64,000 nt of DNA from Pirellulaceae bacterium (GTDB lineage: Bacteria > Planctomycetota > Planctomycetia > Pirellulales > Pirellulaceae). A program made the translations under genes and the position numbers. The stretch spans positions 62,001-126,000 of the forward strand of contig JAQWSU010000056.1 in assembly GCA_029243025.1 (NCBI GenBank). Direction: 5' to 3'. Positions within the stretch are counted from its first letter, which is position 1. Each line of letters opens with the position of its first letter. Shown one piece after another: positions 15,198 to 25,580 of this stretch. Under the pieces are notes generated by a model, which had not been told where the DNA came from, did no database searches, and worked only from the letters and a program-made list of their open reading frames with translations.

Positions 15198-15437
15198 CTA
15201 GGGTCGAGCGACGAAACAACCTCGTCCTTCCGTGCACGCCTGGCGAACCACAACTTCTTCGTCGGGCCCGATAACATGCTGTGTTTTGTTGCACCAGCAG
15301 TTGTACCGGTGACCACCCGCTTCGGTGGGGTCAATCGGATCAGGATCGCCTGTGACATAGATTTCCTTGCTGCGAAGGTGCATGCAGGGGGGAAGCTTTA
15401 CGATCTCAAGATTATCAAATGAACGCTGGTAAGACAT
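15198..15437 (-). CDS. Small cysteine-rich protein coupled to the Mo-hydroxylase genes
   Basis: The 79-residue soluble protein has five cysteines: C18 in PPCMHLRSKEIY, C47 and C49 in RYNCWCNKTQHVIGPDEE, C68 and C74 in QACTEGRGCF. The spacing suggests a bound metal (Zn or Fe-S) or disulfides, but no named family was recognised. The ATG at 15437 is 8 nt after GAGGA, and the stop of the FAD subunit gene (TGA at 15440-15442) lies just before it. It is therefore very likely translated from the same mRNA as the three hydroxylase subunits. The hydrolase gene begins 35 nt after its end. Role unknown. Confidence 0.7.
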   Translation of the reverse strand: MSYQRSFDNLEIVKLPPCMHLRSKEIYVTGDPDPIDPTEAGGHRYNCWCNKTQHVIGPDEEVVVRQACTEGRGCFVARP

Positions 15438-15439
15438 CG

Positions 15440-16432
15440 TCAAAATCCTCCCGTATCGAGTCCGGCGGCCCGCAAAATCGCACGCTGCACGGCAACCTGG
15501 GCCAGTTGAACTTTGTATTCGTTTTCCGACAGTGGCATCGCATCCCTTACAGCGGCCAGGCCAGCCTGCCTGGCAGTTTCTTGATTGACGGGTTGGCCGG
15601 TCAACACGGCTTCCGCCTCCGCAGAAATCCAGGGGGTCGGGGCCACTTGTCCCATCACGATACGAGCATGCTGGACAACGCCGGCAGCGACCGCGAACGT
15701 AGCGGCAGCGGCGGCCAGCGGAGCGTCCGGACCTTCGCCCTGCCGAACTTCATAGGAAGCACTGAGCTCTCCCTGATCCTGTGGCAAAATCAGATGAGTC
15801 AGTAACTGATTGGGCAACAAACTGTTCTCTCGTTCCGTCTCGCTGCCTGGCGTTTGAAACAATCGTTCCAATGAAACGATCGACTCATCCTCCGGGTTAG
15901 GGCCCAAAATCCGGACTTGGGCCTGCAGCGAGATCAGCGCTGGCGCCAAGCGTGAGGCATTGACAAATTTCGCAGCGCCTCGATTCCCGAGAATCGCATG
16001 AAAACGATTATCACCTTGCACAACAGTCCTACCGCCATCGGCCAGCAAACCATGACCATCTCGGAAGTACCAGCATTGAGGGCGACGGAGCAGTTCACCG
16101 CCCAGCGTCCCCTGCGCTTGCAACTGCAGGCTATTGATCCCCTGGATTGCATGCTTAACCGCCGGGTAGGGATCGGTCAGCGAGCTGCCAAGAAAATCGT
16201 CCAGGTTTACCCCCGTCCCAATCCAGAGATTGCCCAGAGGATCGCGGTCAACGGTGCGAATGGAATCAATTCGCCCAATGTCAACCACACGCTGCGGTGT
16301 GACGACCATGCGTTTCATTAATCCGACCAGATCCGTCCCACCGGCTAATAATTCAGTGTGCCCTGGCTGCGATGAAAGCAACTCCAATGCTTCCGCCTCA
16401 GTTTTCGGCTGAGCAAATTCAAAATTCTTCAT
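15440..16432 (-). CDS. Molybdenum hydroxylase FAD-binding subunit (PaoB/YagS-like)
   Basis: The 330-residue subunit has the FAD-binding signature of xanthine-dehydrogenase medium chains: ELLAGGTDLVGLMKRMV (residues 27-43) and GTLGGELLRRPQCWYFRDG, followed by the C-terminal CO-dehydrogenase-flavoprotein domain (DAPLAAAAATF, ARIVMGQVAPTPW). E. coli PaoB holds an extra [4Fe-4S] cluster through cysteines after the RxxCxYFRD block. Here only C120 remains and it is the only cysteine in the protein, so that cluster cannot form. The gene is 2 nt downstream of the Mo subunit gene and is followed by the cysteine-rich small gene. FAD would normally pass substrate electrons to the final acceptor. Confidence 0.92.
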   Translation of the reverse strand: MKNFEFAQPKTEAEALELLSSQPGHTELLAGGTDLVGLMKRMVVTPQRVVDIGRIDSIRTVDRDPLGNLWIGTGVNLDDFLGSSLTDPYPAVKHAIQGINSLQLQAQGTLGGELLRRPQCWYFRDGHGLLADGGRTVVQGDNRFHAILGNRGAAKFVNASRLAPALISLQAQVRILGPNPEDESIVSLERLFQTPGSETERENSLLPNQLLTHLILPQDQGELSASYEVRQGEGPDAPLAAAAATFAVAAGVVQHARIVMGQVAPTPWISAEAEAVLTGQPVNQETARQAGLAAVRDAMPLSENEYKVQLAQVAVQRAILRAAGLDTGGF

Positions 16433-16434
16433 GG

Positions 16435-18657
16435 CTAGACTCTCGCTTTCTTCAGCGCCTCGAGCACTCGTTGCGGCGTTGCGGGCAAGATGGGAACACG
16501 AACTCCAGTCGCGTTGCAGATCGCATTTGAAATCGCAGCACCGCCGCTAATGGCAGGTGGTTCACCGAGGCCGATTACACCACGTTGCCGTTCGCTTTCC
16601 GGTTCGTACATCTCGACAACGATCTCCCCAATGTCACCCAATCGTGGTAAGCGATAATCGGAAAGTTCGCTGTTTACAAAGGCCCCCGTTTTGGGATCAT
16701 TAATACGTTGCTCGAACAGACCCGCTGCAATCGACATGATCACCGCACCGTAGATTTGACTTTCCGCCGTTTTCCGATTGACAACCAATCCCATATCCTG
16801 GACGGCAACAAATCGTTTCACCTTGACGACCCCAGTCTCCGTATCAACGGCCACATGGGCCATCTGGACACCACCGACGCCAGTATTCGACAACGGGCTC
16901 TTCGTACCACGTTGATAATTGGCAGTCACTTCCAACGGTTGTATACCGAGCAGAGCACAAGCCTGTTTCCAAGCCAGCCCTTTATTCGACCCTGCGACTT
17001 CGATCCGTCCGTCGACTGCTTGAAGCTGATCGGCAGGAACCTGCAGTTTTTTCGCCACAAGCTCAAACAGTTTTTGCAAAGCGTCCTGCCCCACGCGGCG
17101 GTGAGATTCACTGACCGCGCCCACTGTCGTACTCCCTCCGGAAGCGCCGCTAAACGGGTAGGTCGAGTGGCCGATATTGACTTTAACTGCCTCGATTGGC
17201 AACCCAAACGTTTCGGCCAACACCATGGCACAGACCGTGCGGGTTCCGGTCCCCAGATCTTGCGTTCCGCAGTACGACTCCACACCGCCATCCGGATGAA
17301 TTTTCAACAGACAACTGGAAGTGTTCGCAGTACCGCCCCAGGTGTGGATACCGATACCAAGTCCTTCGACAACCGCGCCGTTTTTCGGACCTTTGCCATG
17401 CGGATGCCAATTCGCGTCCCAACCGATCCGATCGGCAGCGATTTCCAACTGTTCCAAATACAGCAACTGCTTGTCCACCGAAATATTTTTCAGGTTACGC
17501 AGGAACACATCGAGGCTGCTGATGCCCATCACGGCAGCCAGATCATCGTAGGCAGTCTGCGTGATTGCACAGGCTTGCGGATGATTGGGAGCTCTCCAGG
17601 CCACCGACGGTTCGTTATTGGTTTCGATTCCCGTCGCTCGACGCCGAAAGTTTGGCGGTTGGTAGACGTAAGGAATTTGATTTTGGCTCACGGTTCCGCC
17701 ATTGAAGCCGGTCGTTCCCCAGTGGTGCGAATCCCAAACTTGCACCACGCCGTTCTCATCAGCTCCGAGACGAACTTGCAAGAAACCGGAAGGTCGATTT
17801 CCACCAATTTTCAATTCTTGATCTCGATCGAGCATAAACTTGACGGGACGGCCTGTCGCTTTGGAGATTTGAGCAGCAGCAATACTCCAATAGTCAGGCT
17901 TAAATTTGCTACCAAAGCCACCTCCAATGTATTCGCAGGTTACGTCGACGTCGTCAGCTGTAATCTCCAGCGCATCCGCGAATCCGTCGTCAGTCCGTGA
18001 AACATTTTGAGTTGAAAGGAAGACATTCAGCTTGTCACCATTCCACTGTAATGTGGATCCGTGCGGCTCCAAGCAACAGTGGGTAATCGCGTCGATACCG
18101 TAAAAACCTTCAACGACAAATTTCGACTCATTCAACAAGCGTTGGAGTTCTTCGTCCTCAAAGGCTTCTTCATCTTCGACATCGTCATCCGGCTCGGAAA
18201 CCAACTCGATTTTACCGCCCGCACGCTTAGTGCGTCCCGCAGCTTCCGCCGCCTCCACATCTTGATCCAGCACAAACACGTCGAGCAAATCATATTTCAC
18301 ATTAAGTTTCTCAACGCCTTCGCGAGCAGCGCCTTCCGTTTCGGCAGCAACGGCCGCAATCAATTCACCTTGGGTGCGAATTTCGACTGCATCATCGCCA
18401 GCCTGTTTTGGTGCGCGCATCAGCTGCACATGGACAACACCCGGTACCTTCATTGCCTCAGTAACATCGACGGAGACCACTTTGCAATGAGCATGAGGAC
18501 ATCCAAGAGCTTGAACGATCAATTGCTTGGGCAAATTCACGTCGTAGGTGTACTTTGCGGTACCGGTCGATTTTTCCGGACCATCCAAACGTTTGATTCG
18601 CTTGCCGATTAGCGATGATTTATTCGCCGCTGGCCAGTTATAGGTTGTCTCAGCCAT
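16435..18657 (-). CDS. Molybdenum hydroxylase catalytic (molybdopterin) subunit, PaoC/YagR-like
   Basis: The 740-residue large subunit of the xanthine dehydrogenase/aldehyde oxidase superfamily starts with the small a/b-hammerhead domain (IGKRIKRLDGPEKSTGTAKY). The Mo-binding blocks are EPHGSTLQWNGDKLNVFLST, EYIGGGFGSKFKPDYWSIAA, QDLGTGTRTVCAMVLAE and GASGGSTTVGAVSES. The C-terminal GVIGLGEPPAISGGAAISNA contains the expected catalytic glutamate (about E699). It belongs to the type using molybdopterin cytosine dinucleotide, which fits the MocA-like gene at 21633. The gene overlaps the iron-sulfur subunit gene by 8 nt. Substrate (aldehyde, purine or other) cannot be predicted. It has no signal peptide of its own; export with the Tat-bearing small subunit is likely. 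Confidence 0.95.
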   Translation of the reverse strand: MAETTYNWPAANKSSLIGKRIKRLDGPEKSTGTAKYTYDVNLPKQLIVQALGCPHAHCKVVSVDVTEAMKVPGVVHVQLMRAPKQAGDDAVEIRTQGELIAAVAAETEGAAREGVEKLNVKYDLLDVFVLDQDVEAAEAAGRTKRAGGKIELVSEPDDDVEDEEAFEDEELQRLLNESKFVVEGFYGIDAITHCCLEPHGSTLQWNGDKLNVFLSTQNVSRTDDGFADALEITADDVDVTCEYIGGGFGSKFKPDYWSIAAAQISKATGRPVKFMLDRDQELKIGGNRPSGFLQVRLGADENGVVQVWDSHHWGTTGFNGGTVSQNQIPYVYQPPNFRRRATGIETNNEPSVAWRAPNHPQACAITQTAYDDLAAVMGISSLDVFLRNLKNISVDKQLLYLEQLEIAADRIGWDANWHPHGKGPKNGAVVEGLGIGIHTWGGTANTSSCLLKIHPDGGVESYCGTQDLGTGTRTVCAMVLAETFGLPIEAVKVNIGHSTYPFSGASGGSTTVGAVSESHRRVGQDALQKLFELVAKKLQVPADQLQAVDGRIEVAGSNKGLAWKQACALLGIQPLEVTANYQRGTKSPLSNTGVGGVQMAHVAVDTETGVVKVKRFVAVQDMGLVVNRKTAESQIYGAVIMSIAAGLFEQRINDPKTGAFVNSELSDYRLPRLGDIGEIVVEMYEPESERQRGVIGLGEPPAISGGAAISNAICNATGVRVPILPATPQRVLEALKKARV

Positions 18658-19249
18658 TGCCGCCTCCTTTCACCACCTGAACGGCGGCCTGCACAATATT
18701 CGCGTAAGTGCCACAACGACAGATATTGCCATTTAATCCAGCGCGGATTTGCTCTTCTGTCGCATTGGGATTGGAATTCAAAAAGGCTCGCACTGCCACA
18801 ACAAATCCGGGTGTGCAAAAACCACATTGGGTCGCATCGTGGTCAACAAAAGCTTTCGGTACGACATCATCCACCATACTTTCGACTGTTTCGATCTTCC
18901 GACCTCGTGTGGAGATCGCCAGCGTTGTCGATGCCATGGCGGGCTTGCCATCAATCAACACGGTACTGGCTCCGCTGCTGCCATCTAAACTGACAGGCTT
19001 TGCGCCCGTCAAGTCGAGGTGATAGCGTAACGCTTCTAAAAGAGTCGTTCGCGGTTCAATGGTGATTTCGTGATCTTCGCCATTCACATTAAGCGTCACC
19101 GTCGCTTTTTCGCTAATCACGGTAGCGGGCGCATCCTGCCCACTCGCCGTGGCGGCAACATTCGCGGTCAGAGCCGTCGCAGCTGCTGCTGCACCGGAGC
19201 CCTTCAGAAAGGAGCGGCGGCTGAAGTTATCGGTCGGTGGTTTTGCCAT
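18650..19249 (-). CDS. Molybdenum hydroxylase iron-sulfur subunit with one [2Fe-2S] site lost
   Basis: The 199-residue small subunit starts with a Tat signal (SRRSFLKGSGAAAAATALTA, twin Arg at 11-12), so the enzyme is probably exported folded, as for PaoABC. The ferredoxin-like domain (residues 48-115) aligns with the family over TVLIDGKPAMAS, but all four cluster cysteines are serine: S87, S92, S95 and S107 in place of C-x4-C-x2-C and the later C. The helical domain is intact, with C142 and C145 (QCGFCTPGF) and C177 and C179 (NICRCG). So one [2Fe-2S] cluster should form and the other cannot. It is the first gene of the operon. The sequence is otherwise well conserved, arguing against decay. 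Confidence 0.93.
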   Translation of the reverse strand: MAKPPTDNFSRRSFLKGSGAAAAATALTANVAATASGQDAPATVISEKATVTLNVNGEDHEITIEPRTTLLEALRYHLDLTGAKPVSLDGSSGASTVLIDGKPAMASTTLAISTRGRKIETVESMVDDVVPKAFVDHDATQCGFCTPGFVVAVRAFLNSNPNATEEQIRAGLNGNICRCGTYANIVQAAVQVVKGGGNG

Positions 19250-19378: not shown

Positions 19379-19939
19379 TCACTCCTGCCCAACTTTTCGT
19401 TGTCGCAAGCGATTATGGTCCTGACAACATGCACAGGGACCGGTTTCAAACATCACAATCGCACAAATATCGCACCAATAATCGACCTGAAATTTCTGAC
19501 CCTCCCGCCATTCGTAGACGCGGATTACTTGGATTCCAGGCGTTGCCCGATAGCGCCGAACGCGTAATTCGACGTCCATCTGCCGCAATCGCTGATCGGA
19601 TCGGAATGCCCTCCCCCGCAGATCCTCGATGATCGGCAGCAACTGGCCGTCGTCCGTGGCAATCGCGAGACTGCGATCGGTTTCCCCTTCTACTGTATTG
19701 ATCCCCAACATTTCGCGCAAGGCTTCGCCATACCAGACAACCTTTCCTCGGACCGACTGCAGCTGAAAATCCCGAGACGGACTTTTTCTCACAACTGATG
19801 CCCCACCCTTGGGTAGAGGATCTTGCTTCCCGGCATCTTCCGCCCAAGTCAATCGGGCTGTATTAGGCATTAACCAACAGCATTCGATGATGGCGATCAG
19901 GATATACAGAATAGGTTGCGAAAATTTATTCTTCTGCAT
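19379..19939 (-). CDS. Hypothetical exported protein with C-terminal cysteine cluster
   Basis: The ATG at 19939 gives 186 residues with a hydrophobic N-terminal segment (FSQPILYILIAIIECCWLMP). A middle region (GKVVWYGEALREMLGINTVE...) reads as a soluble beta-rich domain. The C-terminus carries a metal-site-like cluster: YWCDICAIVMFETGPCACCQDH (C-x2-C, then C-x-CC). Similar tails are common in planctomycete exported proteins, but no function is known to me. It overlaps the upstream gene by 14 nt and so belongs to a three-gene minus-strand group (21370 to 19379). An earlier ATG at 20074 would overlap that neighbour much more and is less likely. Confidence 0.65.
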   Translation of the reverse strand: MQKNKFSQPILYILIAIIECCWLMPNTARLTWAEDAGKQDPLPKGGASVVRKSPSRDFQLQSVRGKVVWYGEALREMLGINTVEGETDRSLAIATDDGQLLPIIEDLRGRAFRSDQRLRQMDVELRVRRYRATPGIQVIRVYEWREGQKFQVDYWCDICAIVMFETGPCACCQDHNRLRQRKVGQE

Positions 19940-20603
19940 GGCCTTCCACGACAAGCTCCATAGGAAGCGAAAGCCGTTTTTCTCCCGTCTTGGCATTGTT
20001 CGCAAATCGCAGCATCCACCAATCACGATCAGCATCATGACGCATCCCAGGCGCCTTGACTTCCTTCTTATCACTCAAACGTTGCAAACAAAGCATCGCG
20101 GGGTGATTAGAATCGGCGGCGTTGGCGCTGGATTCCATTAGTTTGTCGACCGCCATGGGTTTTACTGAAGCATCATCCTCGGCCCGAACCAGTAACAAAA
20201 AGTCGCGTGTGGGCGAGGTGCCTTCGTGGTTTCCGTCGACCGGTTGCATGCCAAAACGCATCGTGTAAACACCACGTGAGATTTGTTGCCCGCGAAAATC
20301 GCTACCACGCCGCCGAAATCGCAGGACACCGATTAGTTGTCCTGGCTCAAATGGATACAACCGTTCATTTGTCGATTCGAAATCAGGGACAACATCCCAG
20401 TTCTTTAAGGGCCAAATCTCACAAACGGTGCGTTTCTCACCGCGAACCACGCGTAGGCCTTCGGGTGAAATCTGTTCGGCAATTTTGGTAGCCAGATCCT
20501 CCGTCGGCAATTCGTCTTTAATTATCTCCACTCGATAGTCGGCGGCAAACAACATATCGCCCGCTGTCATCAGAACGACCACGACCAAAAACATACGCAT
20601 CAT
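19926..20603 (-). CDS. Hypothetical secreted protein
   Basis: Starting at the ATG at 20603, the product has a signal peptide (MMRMFLVVVVLMTAGDMLFA) and about 205 mature residues. The sequence contains ENRLYPFEPGQL-like and FRGQQISRGVYTMRFGMQPVDGN segments, followed by a region describing a beta-sandwich (DFLLLVRAEDDASVKP, WWMLRFANN). No cysteine motif and no named family were recognised. It sits between the DUF1326-like gene and the cysteine-cluster gene in the same direction; the 14-nt overlap with the latter suggests coupled translation. The frame is open upstream to 20738, but that would overlap the preceding gene by 55 nt. Confidence 0.65.
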   Translation of the reverse strand: MMRMFLVVVVLMTAGDMLFAADYRVEIIKDELPTEDLATKIAEQISPEGLRVVRGEKRTVCEIWPLKNWDVVPDFESTNERLYPFEPGQLIGVLRFRRRGSDFRGQQISRGVYTMRFGMQPVDGNHEGTSPTRDFLLLVRAEDDASVKPMAVDKLMESSANAADSNHPAMLCLQRLSDKKEVKAPGMRHDADRDWWMLRFANNAKTGEKRLSLPMELVVEGHAEE

Positions 20604-20683
20604 TTTCAAAAACCTTACGTCAGGGGCGTTTCGTCGAAATCTCAGATTAAAGTGCAGGAAAACTCGTGCAGGAAAACTCGAAA

Positions 20684-21370
20684 CTACTGAATCAAAAAGG
20701 TACCAAGATAAGAAGATCGGGAATCGGGAATCGACCAACGGGTCTTTAAACTACGCGCCTTCACCTGCCCATCAATCGTGACTCCGGGCACGAACCCTTG
20801 CAATTTAGCCAACGGTGGGTAGTAAGCCGATTCATTCGAACAAATACAGTCGTCCGGACGAGCTTTGCGAGTTTGTAGCTTCACGAGCTCCCCGACCTTG
20901 AGTTTGGCGGTCAGAGCGGAGTCATCCAGTTGCAGCGTGAAGGGCGCGTCGAGCACACTCTGGACGCCGTCCGCTGCTTTGCCCGTTTGTGATTTCGCAA
21001 AATGCACAAGAGCAGCTCGTTGCTGCGGGGTGGCTTCCTTATCGACGACAATCATGGATTGAATTTGATCGGCATCTTCAAGACCGTGAAATCCCAAGGT
21101 TGCAGATGCCTTCAGCACCACGGCCACATTCAAACCGGCGAGATCCGCCCCATGAAGTTCCCCCGAGTCGATACTCCAAGCCATCACAGCATCCTTCCCC
21201 GCCATGCCAACTTCGCCATTGGCAAAACAAGGTCCCGTATAAACTTGGCAGGTACGAGCTTCCAAATAATGTCCCGCAATGGGTTCGGCTCGACAACAAT
21301 TCGTCCCCGTCAGTCCCCAACCGAGCATCAAGTTCCACACGAATACCGCGCAAAGTGCTGAACGGCCCAT
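20684..21370 (-). CDS. Secreted DUF1326-like protein
   Basis: The 228-residue protein has a signal peptide (LCAVFVWNLMLGWGLTGTNCCRA). It is followed by PIAGHYLEARTCQVYTGPCF, which resembles the start of DUF1326 domains (a strand ending in C-x-C or CxxxxxC). Further on there are GLNVAVVLKASATLGFHGLEDADQ, RAALVHFAKSQTGK and DDCICSNESAYYPPL. The family function is unknown; several members occur near cofactor or metal genes. It is the first of three consecutive minus-strand secreted proteins and is divergent from the MocA-like gene (262 nt between starts). Confidence 0.65.
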   Translation of the reverse strand: MGRSALCAVFVWNLMLGWGLTGTNCCRAEPIAGHYLEARTCQVYTGPCFANGEVGMAGKDAVMAWSIDSGELHGADLAGLNVAVVLKASATLGFHGLEDADQIQSMIVVDKEATPQQRAALVHFAKSQTGKAADGVQSVLDAPFTLQLDDSALTAKLKVGELVKLQTRKARPDDCICSNESAYYPPLAKLQGFVPGVTIDGQVKARSLKTRWSIPDSRSSYLGTFLIQ

Positions 21371-21632: not shown

Positions 21633-22238
21633 ATGTATGCAATCATACCCGCAGCCGGCCACTCCCAACGCATGGGAACCCCCAAACTCCTGCTGCCATG
21701 GGGTAACCGCACCGTAATCGATCACCTACTCGAAATCTGGCAGGCGAGTTCGGTTTGCCGTGTCGTCATTGTAATCCGAGCTGATGACGAAGCCTTAGAG
21801 GCCGTTTGTCGCTGTCATGACGTTGATATCGTCCTGCCGAAGAAGGCTCCCGCCGACATGAAACAGTCGGTCATTCATGGCCTAAACCATTTGGTCGAAC
21901 GGTACGCGCCCGATTCATCGGCTAGTTGGCTGTTGGCGCCGGCCGACATGCCAACTCTCGAGGTTGATGTTATCGAACGGCTGATCAAAGCTCGAGACAA
22001 GTTTCCTCAATCAATTCTGGTGCCGACCTTTGACAGCCAGCCAGGCCACCCCGTTCTGATCCCTTGGACGTTGGCGAGTCGTGTAAGTCAACTGGCCATG
22101 AACGAGGGATTGAATGCACTCATCAAACGCTCAACTCGTCAACAGATCGCCATGCCACGACATCAGCGTCCGGAAGATATCGACACACCTGCCGACTATC
22201 AACGCCTCCAGCCACGTCGCAACCGACACGAATCGTGA
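21633..22238 (+). CDS. mocA: Molybdenum cofactor cytidylyltransferase-like NTP transferase (MocA-like)
   Basis: The 201-residue cytoplasmic nucleotidyltransferase has the MobA/MocA fold. IIPAAGHSQRMGTPKLLLPWG is the signature nucleotide-binding loop (G-x-S-x-R-M-G-x-P-K-L-L). APADMPTLEVDVIERL holds the metal-binding Asp and PTFDSQPGHPVLIPW is the second conserved block. MocA converts molybdopterin to the cytosine dinucleotide used by the PaoC/xanthine-dehydrogenase family. The presence of such an enzyme at 16435-18657 supports that reading, although NTP transferases of this type may have other acceptors. The usual XdhC-like partner is not in the window. Confidence 0.8.
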   Translation: MYAIIPAAGHSQRMGTPKLLLPWGNRTVIDHLLEIWQASSVCRVVIVIRADDEALEAVCRCHDVDIVLPKKAPADMKQSVIHGLNHLVERYAPDSSASWLLAPADMPTLEVDVIERLIKARDKFPQSILVPTFDSQPGHPVLIPWTLASRVSQLAMNEGLNALIKRSTRQQIAMPRHQRPEDIDTPADYQRLQPRRNRHES

Positions 22239-23571: not shown

Positions 23572-23593
23572 AATCCCTGACCTTGATCAGGGG
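23572..23593 (-). terminator. Intrinsic terminator overlapping a stop codon
   Basis: On the minus strand CCCTGATC-aa-GGTCAGGG is followed by ATTTTTCC. The left arm contains the TGA stop of the tandem-repeat protein (23587-23589), so translation ends inside the hairpin. Confidence 0.7.
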
Positions 23594-24123
23594 GATAACC
23601 AAGCCCATCGGCGAGACGGCAAAAGGCGATTCGGGTTATAGGTCAATACGGGAGCCCGATAAACAGTCGTGGGAGCAACGATTGGAGCAACCGGTGCGTA
23701 ATAGGTGGTCGTCGGAATCGCAGGTGCGTAATAGGTGGTTACCGGCGCCGGAACAACCGAAATCGGTGGGGGAGCATAATAAGTCGTCACCGGCTGAGGC
23801 GCTGGAGAATAATACGTGACGGTTGGGCTGGGCGCTGCCACTGTGCTGGGAGCATAGTAAGTCGTCACCGTCTCCGAGGGCGCTGCCACCGTGCTGGGAG
23901 CATAGTAAGTCGTCACCGTCTCCGAGGGCGCTGCCACCGTGCTCGGGGCATAGTAAGTCGTCACCGTCTCCGAGGGCGCTGCCACCGTGCTGGGAGCATA
24001 GTAAGTCGTCACCGTCTCTGGCGCAACAGGCGGATAATAAGTCGTTACGACCTGTGCATTGAGGCCCATCCCACAAACTAAACTCAACGCGAAAAACGTC
24101 GCTACGACAATCTTTTTATTCAT
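23587..24123 (-). CDS. Secreted Tyr/Pro-rich protein with 16-residue tandem repeats
   Basis: The ATG at 24123 gives a signal peptide (MNKKIVVATFFALSLVCGMG) and a mature part of about 155 residues made mainly of TTYYAP units. Four nearly identical 16-residue repeats (APSETVTTYYAPSTVA type) are encoded by 48-nt DNA repeats. After them come looser TYYAP and TTYYAPA copies, and a short basic end (NRLLPSRRWAWLSP). Such low-complexity Tyr/Pro/Val sequence suggests a structural cell-surface or stalk/matrix protein, possibly cross-linked through tyrosines; that is inference. The near-identity of the DNA repeats predicts copy-number variation among strains. Confidence 0.7.
   Translation of the reverse strand: MNKKIVVATFFALSLVCGMGLNAQVVTTYYPPVAPETVTTYYAPSTVAAPSETVTTYYAPSTVAAPSETVTTYYAPSTVAAPSETVTTYYAPSTVAAPSPTVTYYSPAPQPVTTYYAPPPISVVPAPVTTYYAPAIPTTTYYAPVAPIVAPTTVYRAPVLTYNPNRLLPSRRWAWLSP
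23833..24024. repeat. Four 48-nt tandem repeats within a coding region
   Basis: Copies begin at 23833, 23881, 23929 and 23977 with an exact 48-nt period. They differ at only a few positions (for example tgctggga and tgctcggg). They are in frame with the protein at 23587-24123 and encode its 16-residue units. Confidence 0.9.
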
Positions 24124-25580
24124 TTTGGTCGGTACCTCTCGAAACACTGTTGGCTCGCGTCCGCGGCGAAGCGAACAACAACGGGGACTGATTCGGCAAT
24201 CGCAACCAGCACATTCCTACCCTTGATGCTAGTTTGCCAAAGAAGGTGTGGCAACTCGCCCCCACGGCTAACAAGCATTTTTTAGAGATTTGGATCGTTT
24301 TCATCTACGGGAAGGTAGGAAGCCCAGGCAAATTCTTCCGATCAGAGAGCTTTTTAATTCCACGAACTTGCCAGAAACAACCGCTTGGAAAACAGGAAGC
24401 GGCAATTCACGCAGCGATAAACAAGGATCCAACGTAACATCCACAAGGGTTGCTTGAATTCAACATTGGCCTGTTGCTATACCGCATCACGATGCACGAA
24501 ACCCCACTGTGAATATTTGTGACTATTGCCACCCACTACGCCAAGTTGACTGCACTCCACGCTGCGTCCAACTTGCAACAGATCGACACCCTCCAGGCCG
24601 CATGCGTTCTGCAATCAAACCCGGGGAAATGTGCCAACCGAACCGTGCTTGACTTCCCGTGAGCATATGACACGGTTAAGTATCAACACTTCCAACTTGT
24701 CATTCGACAAAAGTTATTCTCGTCAGTCGACGTAACTCAACCGATCGCAAGGTCAGCCCCCAAAGCCACGAAAGCTTTGAGCCAATGAGGCTACTAAAAT
24801 TCACGGCCTGCGCGTGCAATTCGACATTCGCTGAAGCAAGCGGTCAAACGATCTCAAGAGCGATAGTTTCCTGTCAATCAACAGTCCAATCAATCAACCC
24901 TTTCCATTGACCGACTCATTGACGACACCCAATAGCTTAGTTCCTGCGATTCCGTTCCACCCCAATAAGAACGATCAATAAGTCGATTTGGTGACCTGCC
25001 TCGACAACCTCAAGTTGCCCTGCCGGGTCAAGAACTCCAGCATTCGGCAGCGACTATTCTGCTAACCCTTACTGGTTCACTTCCCACCCCAGGAGTCCTC
25101 TGACGTCTTTGAGAGCTCGAAGCAAGATCGTTTCGATGGTCGGCCAATCGCGAACGATCTTTTCCGTCGCATCGGCCGCCAACCTGAGGAGCCAACAAAA
25201 CGCTTGAAATGGCCGGATCTTACCCAACCCATGCGAAATCGCATTGAGATCCTCGGGCGGATTCGGCAGCAATGCTTGATTTGGATGCGACCATGCAATT
25301 GTGGCGTAAAACAAAGCTTTCCCGATCAGAACGAAGGAGCATTTACCAGCGTGTATTCGAGTCGGAGTCGACCGAGATGGGTCGACTCCGATTTTTTTCA
25401 CCTGAACCAAGTTTTTGGCCCAGATCGGGCTGGCCAAGCACTTCCGACAAAGCAAAGCGAATTACGCTTTTCCCAGGGTTGTGTCGGCTATCACCTGCAG
25501 TCGACCTAAATCGGATCCGATCGGATCCCACCACGACGCATTGACACCGAGAAAGCTTCGTTTGTAAAGTAAGGACTTGC
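24124..25580. other. Gene-poor region of about 1.4 kb before tRNA-Val
   Basis: No reading frame here shows a recognisable domain, signal peptide or clear ribosome-binding site. Frames of 60-130 codons exist on both strands (for example 25069-25455 minus) but overlap each other and have no family resemblance. The one strong signal is the intrinsic terminator at 25362-25398 on the plus strand. I looked for tmRNA, RNase P RNA, SRP RNA and a CRISPR array and recognised none of them. Confidence 0.5.
25362..25398 (+). terminator. Strong intrinsic terminator without an obvious gene
   Basis: TCGGAGTCGAC (25362-25372), an 8-nt loop, GTCGACTCCGA (25381-25391) and T7 (25392-25398) form a perfect 11-bp stem with a U-tract. 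No plus-strand gene is recognised in the 1.2 kb upstream, so it may end an unannotated transcript. Confidence 0.75.

Follow-up and report, generated by a model that had tools for sequence, protein, structure and literature searches.

Electrons in enzymes of the xanthine oxidase family run from a molybdenum (Mo) center through two [2Fe-2S] clusters, FeSI in the helical domain and FeSII in the ferredoxin domain, to flavin adenine dinucleotide (FAD), with FeSII sitting between FeSI and FAD. The periplasmic aldehyde oxidoreductase PaoABC of Escherichia coli (PDB entries 5g5g and 5g5h) is encoded by three subunit genes, carries a twin-arginine translocation (Tat) signal on the small subunit, and has the cysteines of both clusters in PaoA. 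The Methylobacillus aldehyde oxidase 5y6q aligns with four FeSII cysteines and extra cysteines in its FAD subunit, and 4-hydroxybenzoyl-CoA reductase (1rm6) has an FAD subunit of the [4Fe-4S] type. The aldehyde oxidoreductase of Desulfovibrio gigas is a family member without FAD whose clusters may pass electrons to an external protein. Here, we describe a PaoABC-like operon in a 64,000-nucleotide stretch of a Pirellulaceae bacterium genome (GenBank assembly GCA_029243025.1, contig JAQWSU010000056.1, positions 62,001 to 126,000; the window hereafter), in which the small subunit has serine at all four FeSII ligand positions.

The window carries the small, large and FAD-type subunit genes consecutively on the minus strand, and the first 8 bases of the large-subunit gene are also the last 8 of the small-subunit gene (Table 1). 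The locus resembles that of PaoABC in its three-subunit gene set, in the Tat signal of the small subunit (PF10518, 32.1 bits against a cut-off of 22.7) and in the FeSI ligands, and the large subunit has its best PDB sequence match in PaoABC. For the small and FAD subunits the best PDB sequence match is 5y6q; the FAD subunit also matches 1rm6, and its best NCBIfam match is TIGR03195, below the cut-off. The large subunit has the Pfam domains MoCoBD_1/2 and Ald_Xan_dh_C, and the Glu of its GxGE motif is the one we take to be catalytic. By its Mo domains, this Glu motif and the FeSI cysteines, the enzyme is identified as a Mo-hydroxylase of the xanthine oxidase family, and by alignment it is closest to PaoABC and 5y6q; aldehyde oxidation of the PaoABC type would be a possible activity. 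The differences lie in gene order (small-large-FAD) and in the metal centers. Unlike PaoABC and 5y6q, the window enzyme lacks the four FeSII cysteines expected of the family and the extra FAD-subunit cysteines, so that four [4Fe-4S] cysteines of the PaoB/HCR-beta type are not found either. Compared with 1rm6, three of the four [4Fe-4S] cysteines are missing, the FAD region is changed, and FeSII is lost. The NCBIfam equivalog models for PaoA and PaoC give 143.9 and 305.1 bits, short of cut-offs of 322 and 1180. In D. gigas the whole FAD domain is absent and both [2Fe-2S] clusters are kept, unlike here; that enzyme is the nearest precedent for an altered electron exit.

The small subunit is a 199-residue protein starting with ATG. 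In PDB alignments, the FeSII cysteines of 5y6q_A, 1ffu_A and PaoA (5g5g_A) fall on S87, S92, S95 and S107, and the FeSI cysteines are all kept as C142, C145, C177 and C179, which bears out the original prediction, made by reading the sequence, of four serines beside an intact second cluster site. The codons are, in order, AGT, AGC, AGT and TCG; a single base change would thus turn three of the four into Cys codons, as had also been claimed. A Pfam scan of the window protein matched Fer2_2 (the helical domain) and the Tat signal, with no match to Fer2 (the ferredoxin domain). Among 65 small subunits scanned at an E value of 0.01, Fer2_2 was found in 65 and Fer2 in 31. Two homologues elsewhere in the same genome (L002 and L003) have four FeSII cysteines each, with an in-frame stop near the start of the matched stretch of L002. 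The genome also holds another Mo-hydroxylase small-subunit fragment, L004 (G000:C28:31948-32262), with two in-frame stops; it is probably a pseudogene.

The loss is shared by a whole group of relatives. A search of 147 related genomes found a close orthologue, at a best E value of 2e-56 or lower (our own cut), in 51 of them, counting the window's own genome. At the 50 loci from the 50 other genomes, four FeSII cysteines were present in none and four FeSI cysteines in all. We assigned the rows of this group, clade A, by hand after building a tree of large subunits, and added loci from a search of named assemblies; from its 582 confirmed loci the best 80 were kept, and its patterns include GGGFGSKF, which biases it toward this group. 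By record titles, the named members include Fuerstiella, Rubripirellula, Rhodopirellula, Pirellulales and Planctomycetaceae, among others. None of the 63 distinct clade-A small subunits retains four FeSII cysteines, and all 63 retain the four FeSI cysteines; the Mo-site motifs GxGE and GGGFGSK are likewise kept at the clade-A loci containing that stretch. Serine at all four positions (SSSS, in the order 87/92/95/107) occurs in 35 of the 63. The other 28 show 12 patterns: SSSN in nine, SCSA in four, and CSAN, SSCS, SSCN, STSS, SSAA, SAAD, CSSA, AVSG, SSSA and TSSS in one or two each. With strict SSSS in only 35 of 63, serine is not a required ligand set, and the idea of a strict four-serine clade was dropped. 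All members of the clade lack the full set of FeSII cysteines, and the four serines are one form of this loss.

A second group, the sister branch B, lost the same ligands by other replacements. Its named members are, by record titles, mostly Planctomycetaceae, Planctomyces, Schlesneria and Planctomicrobium. It contains 13 distinct rows without the FeSII cysteines and 13 distinct rows with all four; the replacements are mostly Asp, Gly, Lys, Glu or Gln (KDDG, EDDS, QDDG, DDDG, DSDS and similar). Rows read as FCDS and EVDG become FSDS and ELDG in a larger alignment; their exact alignment is unsure, and four cysteines are absent either way. The wider searches covered 392 genomes of the phylum (with at most two candidates scored per genome) and 297 of the class. 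We extracted 160 regions, and together these searches gave a series graded from intact to stripped loci: 60 regions came from the orthologue search, 10 of them four-cysteine paralogues, 40 from the phylum, and 60 of the 81 places in the class lacking a locus. Among 76 loci from the class search, 64 have four FeSII cysteines and 12 do not, two being SSSS and ten resembling branch B. At least three of these 12 (L231, L235 and L242) duplicate the genomes of L100-L102. Acidobacterial-type rows keep the four FeSII cysteines in 23 of 23, with L205 deviating at two FeSI columns. In plasmids, 1273 records matched the small subunit, all below 60% identity, and in the viral contigs searched no relative was found.

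The FAD subunit is altered as well. In PaoB- and HCR-beta-like relatives, alignments place four cysteines in the stretch that follows TxGGN; those of PaoB hold a [4Fe-4S] cluster. Such a cluster in an FAD-type subunit was reportedly the subject of Unciuleac et al. in 2004, by the title of that paper. The window protein keeps only C120. Across 57 distinct clade-A FAD subunits, this stretch has one cysteine in 50 and two in seven, and in outgroup D it has three to five in 29 of 29. Two residues in the FAD-binding region have also become charged. The Asn of TxGGN, present in 28 of 29 group-D proteins and 10 of 10 paralogues, is Glu in 51 and Asp in six of the 57 clade-A proteins. At the position of R161, all 57 have Arg and all 10 paralogues have Asp; the 29 group-D proteins divide into Asn (16), Ser (7) and Asp (6), and the 48 pairs that have the [4Fe-4S] cysteines divide into Thr (20), Asn (15), Ser (7) and Asp (6). 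Since the Arg position is variable and the Asn nearly constant, the change at the Asn carries more weight than the change to Arg. These positions presumably correspond to Asn351 and Asp360 of bovine xanthine oxidase. Two docking papers list Asn351 and Asp360 as docked-ligand contacts, and one of them calls the site the FAD center (PMC13414348, PMC10221946). These changes place FAD binding by the clade-A subunit in doubt; FAD would be held weakly or not at all. Two other-paralogue PaoB-like FAD subunits, L093 and L095, have Ser for the first [4Fe-4S] Cys and lack the rest, with their FeSII cysteines intact, apparently a separate [4Fe-4S] loss.

The states of the two subunits follow an order. 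We scored 192 distinct pairs of small and FAD subunits, leaving aside the 10 paralogues, loci lacking a subunit, rows with gaps in FeSII columns, and FAD segments shorter than 45 residues. FeSII was lost in none of 48 pairs with the [4Fe-4S] cysteines, in none of 53 with neither these nor the Arg, and in 69 of 91 with the Arg. A large-subunit tree of 143 rows holds clade A (59 rows) at support 100 and needs five changes of FeSII state; a tree of large plus FAD subunits (39 rows) gives clade A (nine rows) 100/99 and branch B (24 rows, both FeSII states) 100/100, again with five. In a 181-row tree the fewest changes are six for FeSII, three for the [4Fe-4S] ligands and one for the Arg; it and the 143-row tree used a simpler model and a short search. 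On the tree, loss of the FAD-subunit [4Fe-4S] ligands and the change in the FAD region come before the loss of FeSII. Change counts do not separate gain from loss; regain of four cysteines in register being unlikely, we read them as at least three losses. The approximately unbiased (AU) test rejected the grouping of all 13 branch-B rows that lost FeSII into one clade (P = 1e-5), and did not reject it once the two FCDS rows were removed (P = 0.19), the groups having been picked after inspection of a tree. For that reason we claim three losses rather than five or six: if four cysteines were not regained, independent losses in clade A, in the main branch-B set and in the FCDS pair look robust.

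The ferredoxin domain appears to have outlasted its ligands. AlphaFold2, run on 65 sequences, predicts the small subunit with a mean pLDDT (predicted local distance difference test) score of 86.4 and block means of 93 to 98 for residues 51 to 120. Foldseek matches the model to the small subunits of the family in the PDB, with 5y6q_A first at a template modeling (TM) score of 0.91 by target length. This confident prediction and these fold matches indicate a domain that is retained as structure. The mean majority residue is 0.75 in the ferredoxin domain and 0.80 in the helical domain of clade A, compared with 0.77 and 0.76 in the acidobacterial four-cysteine set, and since it is slightly the less conserved of the two, the clade-A ferredoxin domain may be somewhat relaxed.

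A further gene follows the FAD subunit closely. It begins 2 bases past the FAD-subunit stop and encodes a small protein that we call dnC, whose cysteines 17, 48, 67 and 73 (first Met uncounted) occur without exception in the 69 aligned relatives. Relatives of dnC lie at 116 of 181 loci, some genomes being counted twice and some loci incomplete: 79 of 86 that lost FeSII, 25 of 42 with four FeSII cysteines and no [4Fe-4S] ligands, 10 of 28 with the [4Fe-4S] ligands, none of 10 paralogues, and two of 15 unclassed. By genome, dnC is present in 48 of 51 with the clade-A enzyme versus one of 96 without it. A weak relative (G001:C36:8205-8384, E = 4e-12) lies in a same-genus genome without a clade-A small subunit. 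Searches of Pfam and NCBIfam gave no match to dnC, the best PDB sequence hit had an E value of 0.53, Foldseek gave a single match at E = 8, and VIA gave none. As dnC has no match to a Tat signal, it would either act as a helper in the cytosol or leave the cell interior together with the complex.

These data suggest, with somewhat better than even credence on our part, an exported three-subunit Mo-hydroxylase whose outer electron path was dismantled from the acceptor end inward and whose electrons exit at FeSI. The FAD subunit would first have lost its [4Fe-4S] ligands, residues of the FAD-binding region would then have turned charged, and the FeSII ligands would have been lost last, repeatedly, with the ferredoxin fold persisting as a structural part without its cluster. 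Because the Mo-site motifs and FeSI are retained, electrons very likely still arrive at FeSI. They would get no farther, and most likely leave FeSI for an outside acceptor, external or accessory; we infer this exit, and the absence of the two clusters from the protein, from the ligand losses. The linked dnC would be one candidate acceptor. The original prediction of an electron chain broken or rerouted is consistent with this evidence and needs widening, since the FAD subunit is altered too and the sister branch shares the loss. Several observations weigh against the scheme. No conserved heme acceptor gene adjoins the operon, with CXXCH in flanking open reading frames at only six of 61 loci (L074 has four). 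The AGGTD motif is retained in clade A, so FAD may still be bound. The position that turned to Arg is not strongly conserved elsewhere, and since the Arg arose once on the tree, its link to FeSII loss has no statistical power; in four starred independent pairs the Arg differs in one and the [4Fe-4S] state in zero or one. Operons with all clusters have dnC as a neighbor too, so it did not originate as a replacement for FeSII. Finally, the ratio of nonsynonymous to synonymous substitution rates (dN/dS) in the ferredoxin domain reaches 0.8 in distant pairs, among 30 listed of 1354 pairs, where dS is unreliable.

This last figure is what speaks for plain gene decay, or a sequencing error, as the origin of the serines. 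We regard either as scarcely credible: the four closest pairs that differ (L049/L050, L051/L085, L040/L041 and L141/L157) have dN/dS values of 0 to 0.07 in the ferredoxin domain and L066/L074 has 0.18, and the same loss recurs in 50 other genomes with the small-large order intact and the FAD subunit present in most whose contig extends to it. The view that this is not simple decay is therefore upheld, and an error at four codons, named beforehand as grounds for withdrawing the prediction, is contradicted by the 50 orthologous loci. Another alternative is a cluster still assembled at FeSII, held by Ser or Asp oxygens rather than by Cys. Single Ser ligands to [2Fe-2S] clusters occur in mutants, and the 35 SSSS proteins, together with the Asp that all 13 distinct branch-B loss proteins have at position 95, would suit it. 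The positions also hold Ala, Asn, Gly, Val, Thr and Asp, and in branch B Lys, Glu, Gln and Phe, which leaves no constant ligand set, and we know of no all-oxygen [2Fe-2S] site. We consider oxygen ligation very improbable and the FeSII cluster very probably absent.

A further alternative is that FAD still receives electrons, through a long jump from FeSI or across a rearranged interface, and hands them on to an acceptor. The FAD-type subunit is retained, and all 57 distinct clade-A proteins carry the first FAD motif, AGGT (one with Ser for Thr). Known family members place FeSII between FeSI and FAD; moreover, an acidic residue now replaces a near-constant Asn in the FAD region, with an Arg at a neighboring position, and the first motif itself varies in the branch-B rows that lost FeSII (Gly31 replaced in five of 13, Thr33 in four of 13). 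FAD is thus a doubtful electron acceptor, and this route, the strongest of the alternatives, is in our judgment unlikely. Rather less probable still is an enzyme with no net substrate oxidation, which would couple two half-reactions at the Mo site or serve a non-redox role. Such an enzyme would fit the loss of most of the relay and the lack of a conserved heme acceptor gene, and is hard to square with the FeSI cysteines (63 of 63) and Mo-site motifs, whose retention suggests that electron transfer still matters. In the literature, at the level of titles and the starts of abstracts and with most subscription journals outside coverage, we found no description of a natural FeSII loss.

The remaining genes around the operon are listed in Table 1. 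Genes for the DUF1326 protein, X and Y lie upstream at 17, 19 and 16 of the 51 clade-A loci, a set that includes short ones, and their relatives also adjoin operons with all cysteines intact. The divergent MocA-like gene possibly supplies cofactor to the enzyme; MocA matches occur at only three of the 51 loci. A neighboring c-type cytochrome was considered as the acceptor and dropped, as it is not conserved across loci. Farther away, a minus-strand open reading frame at 23587-24147 contains repeated TVAAPSETVTTYYAPS-like units, and its product is possibly a surface or secreted protein.

Table 1. Features of the operon and its surroundings (window coordinates).
Feature	Position	Strand	Basis or remarks
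Small (Fe-S) subunit, PaoA-like, with Tat signal	18650..19249	-	Open reading frame list, Pfam, PDB alignments, orthologues
Ser codons at FeSII positions	S87 18989-18991, S92 18974-18976, S95 18965-18967, S107 18929-18931	-	Derived by hand from the coding sequence
FeSI Cys codons	C142 18824-18826, C145 18815-18817, C177 18719-18721, C179 18713-18715	-	Derived by hand from the coding sequence
Large (Mo cofactor) subunit, PaoC-like	16435..18657	-	GGGFGSK and GxGE motifs present
FAD-type subunit, PaoB-like	15440..16432	-	C120 alone of four [4Fe-4S] Cys; E113 (TLGGE), R161
dnC (our name), 79-residue protein	15198..15437	-	Four Cys; without Pfam or NCBIfam match
Gene Y, Cys-rich (WCDIC..CACC), linked, start unsure	19379..20074	-	Without Pfam family
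Gene X, linked, start unsure	19926..20738	-	Without Pfam family
DUF1326 protein (PF07040), linked	20684..21370	-	Pfam
MocA-like Mo-cofactor cytidylyltransferase relative, divergent to operon	21633..22238	+	Best NCBIfam model TIGR03310, 127.8 bits against a cut-off of 186.45

The order Mo - FeSI - FeSII - FAD is regarded as the family's usual wiring, and the planctomycete enzymes appear to have been stripped of it stepwise. Annotation of such small subunits as 2Fe-2S proteins can mask the loss of a cluster site. Intact, half-stripped and further-stripped relatives coexist in one phylum, and would provide material for asking what role each relay center has and where electrons go once a center is gone.

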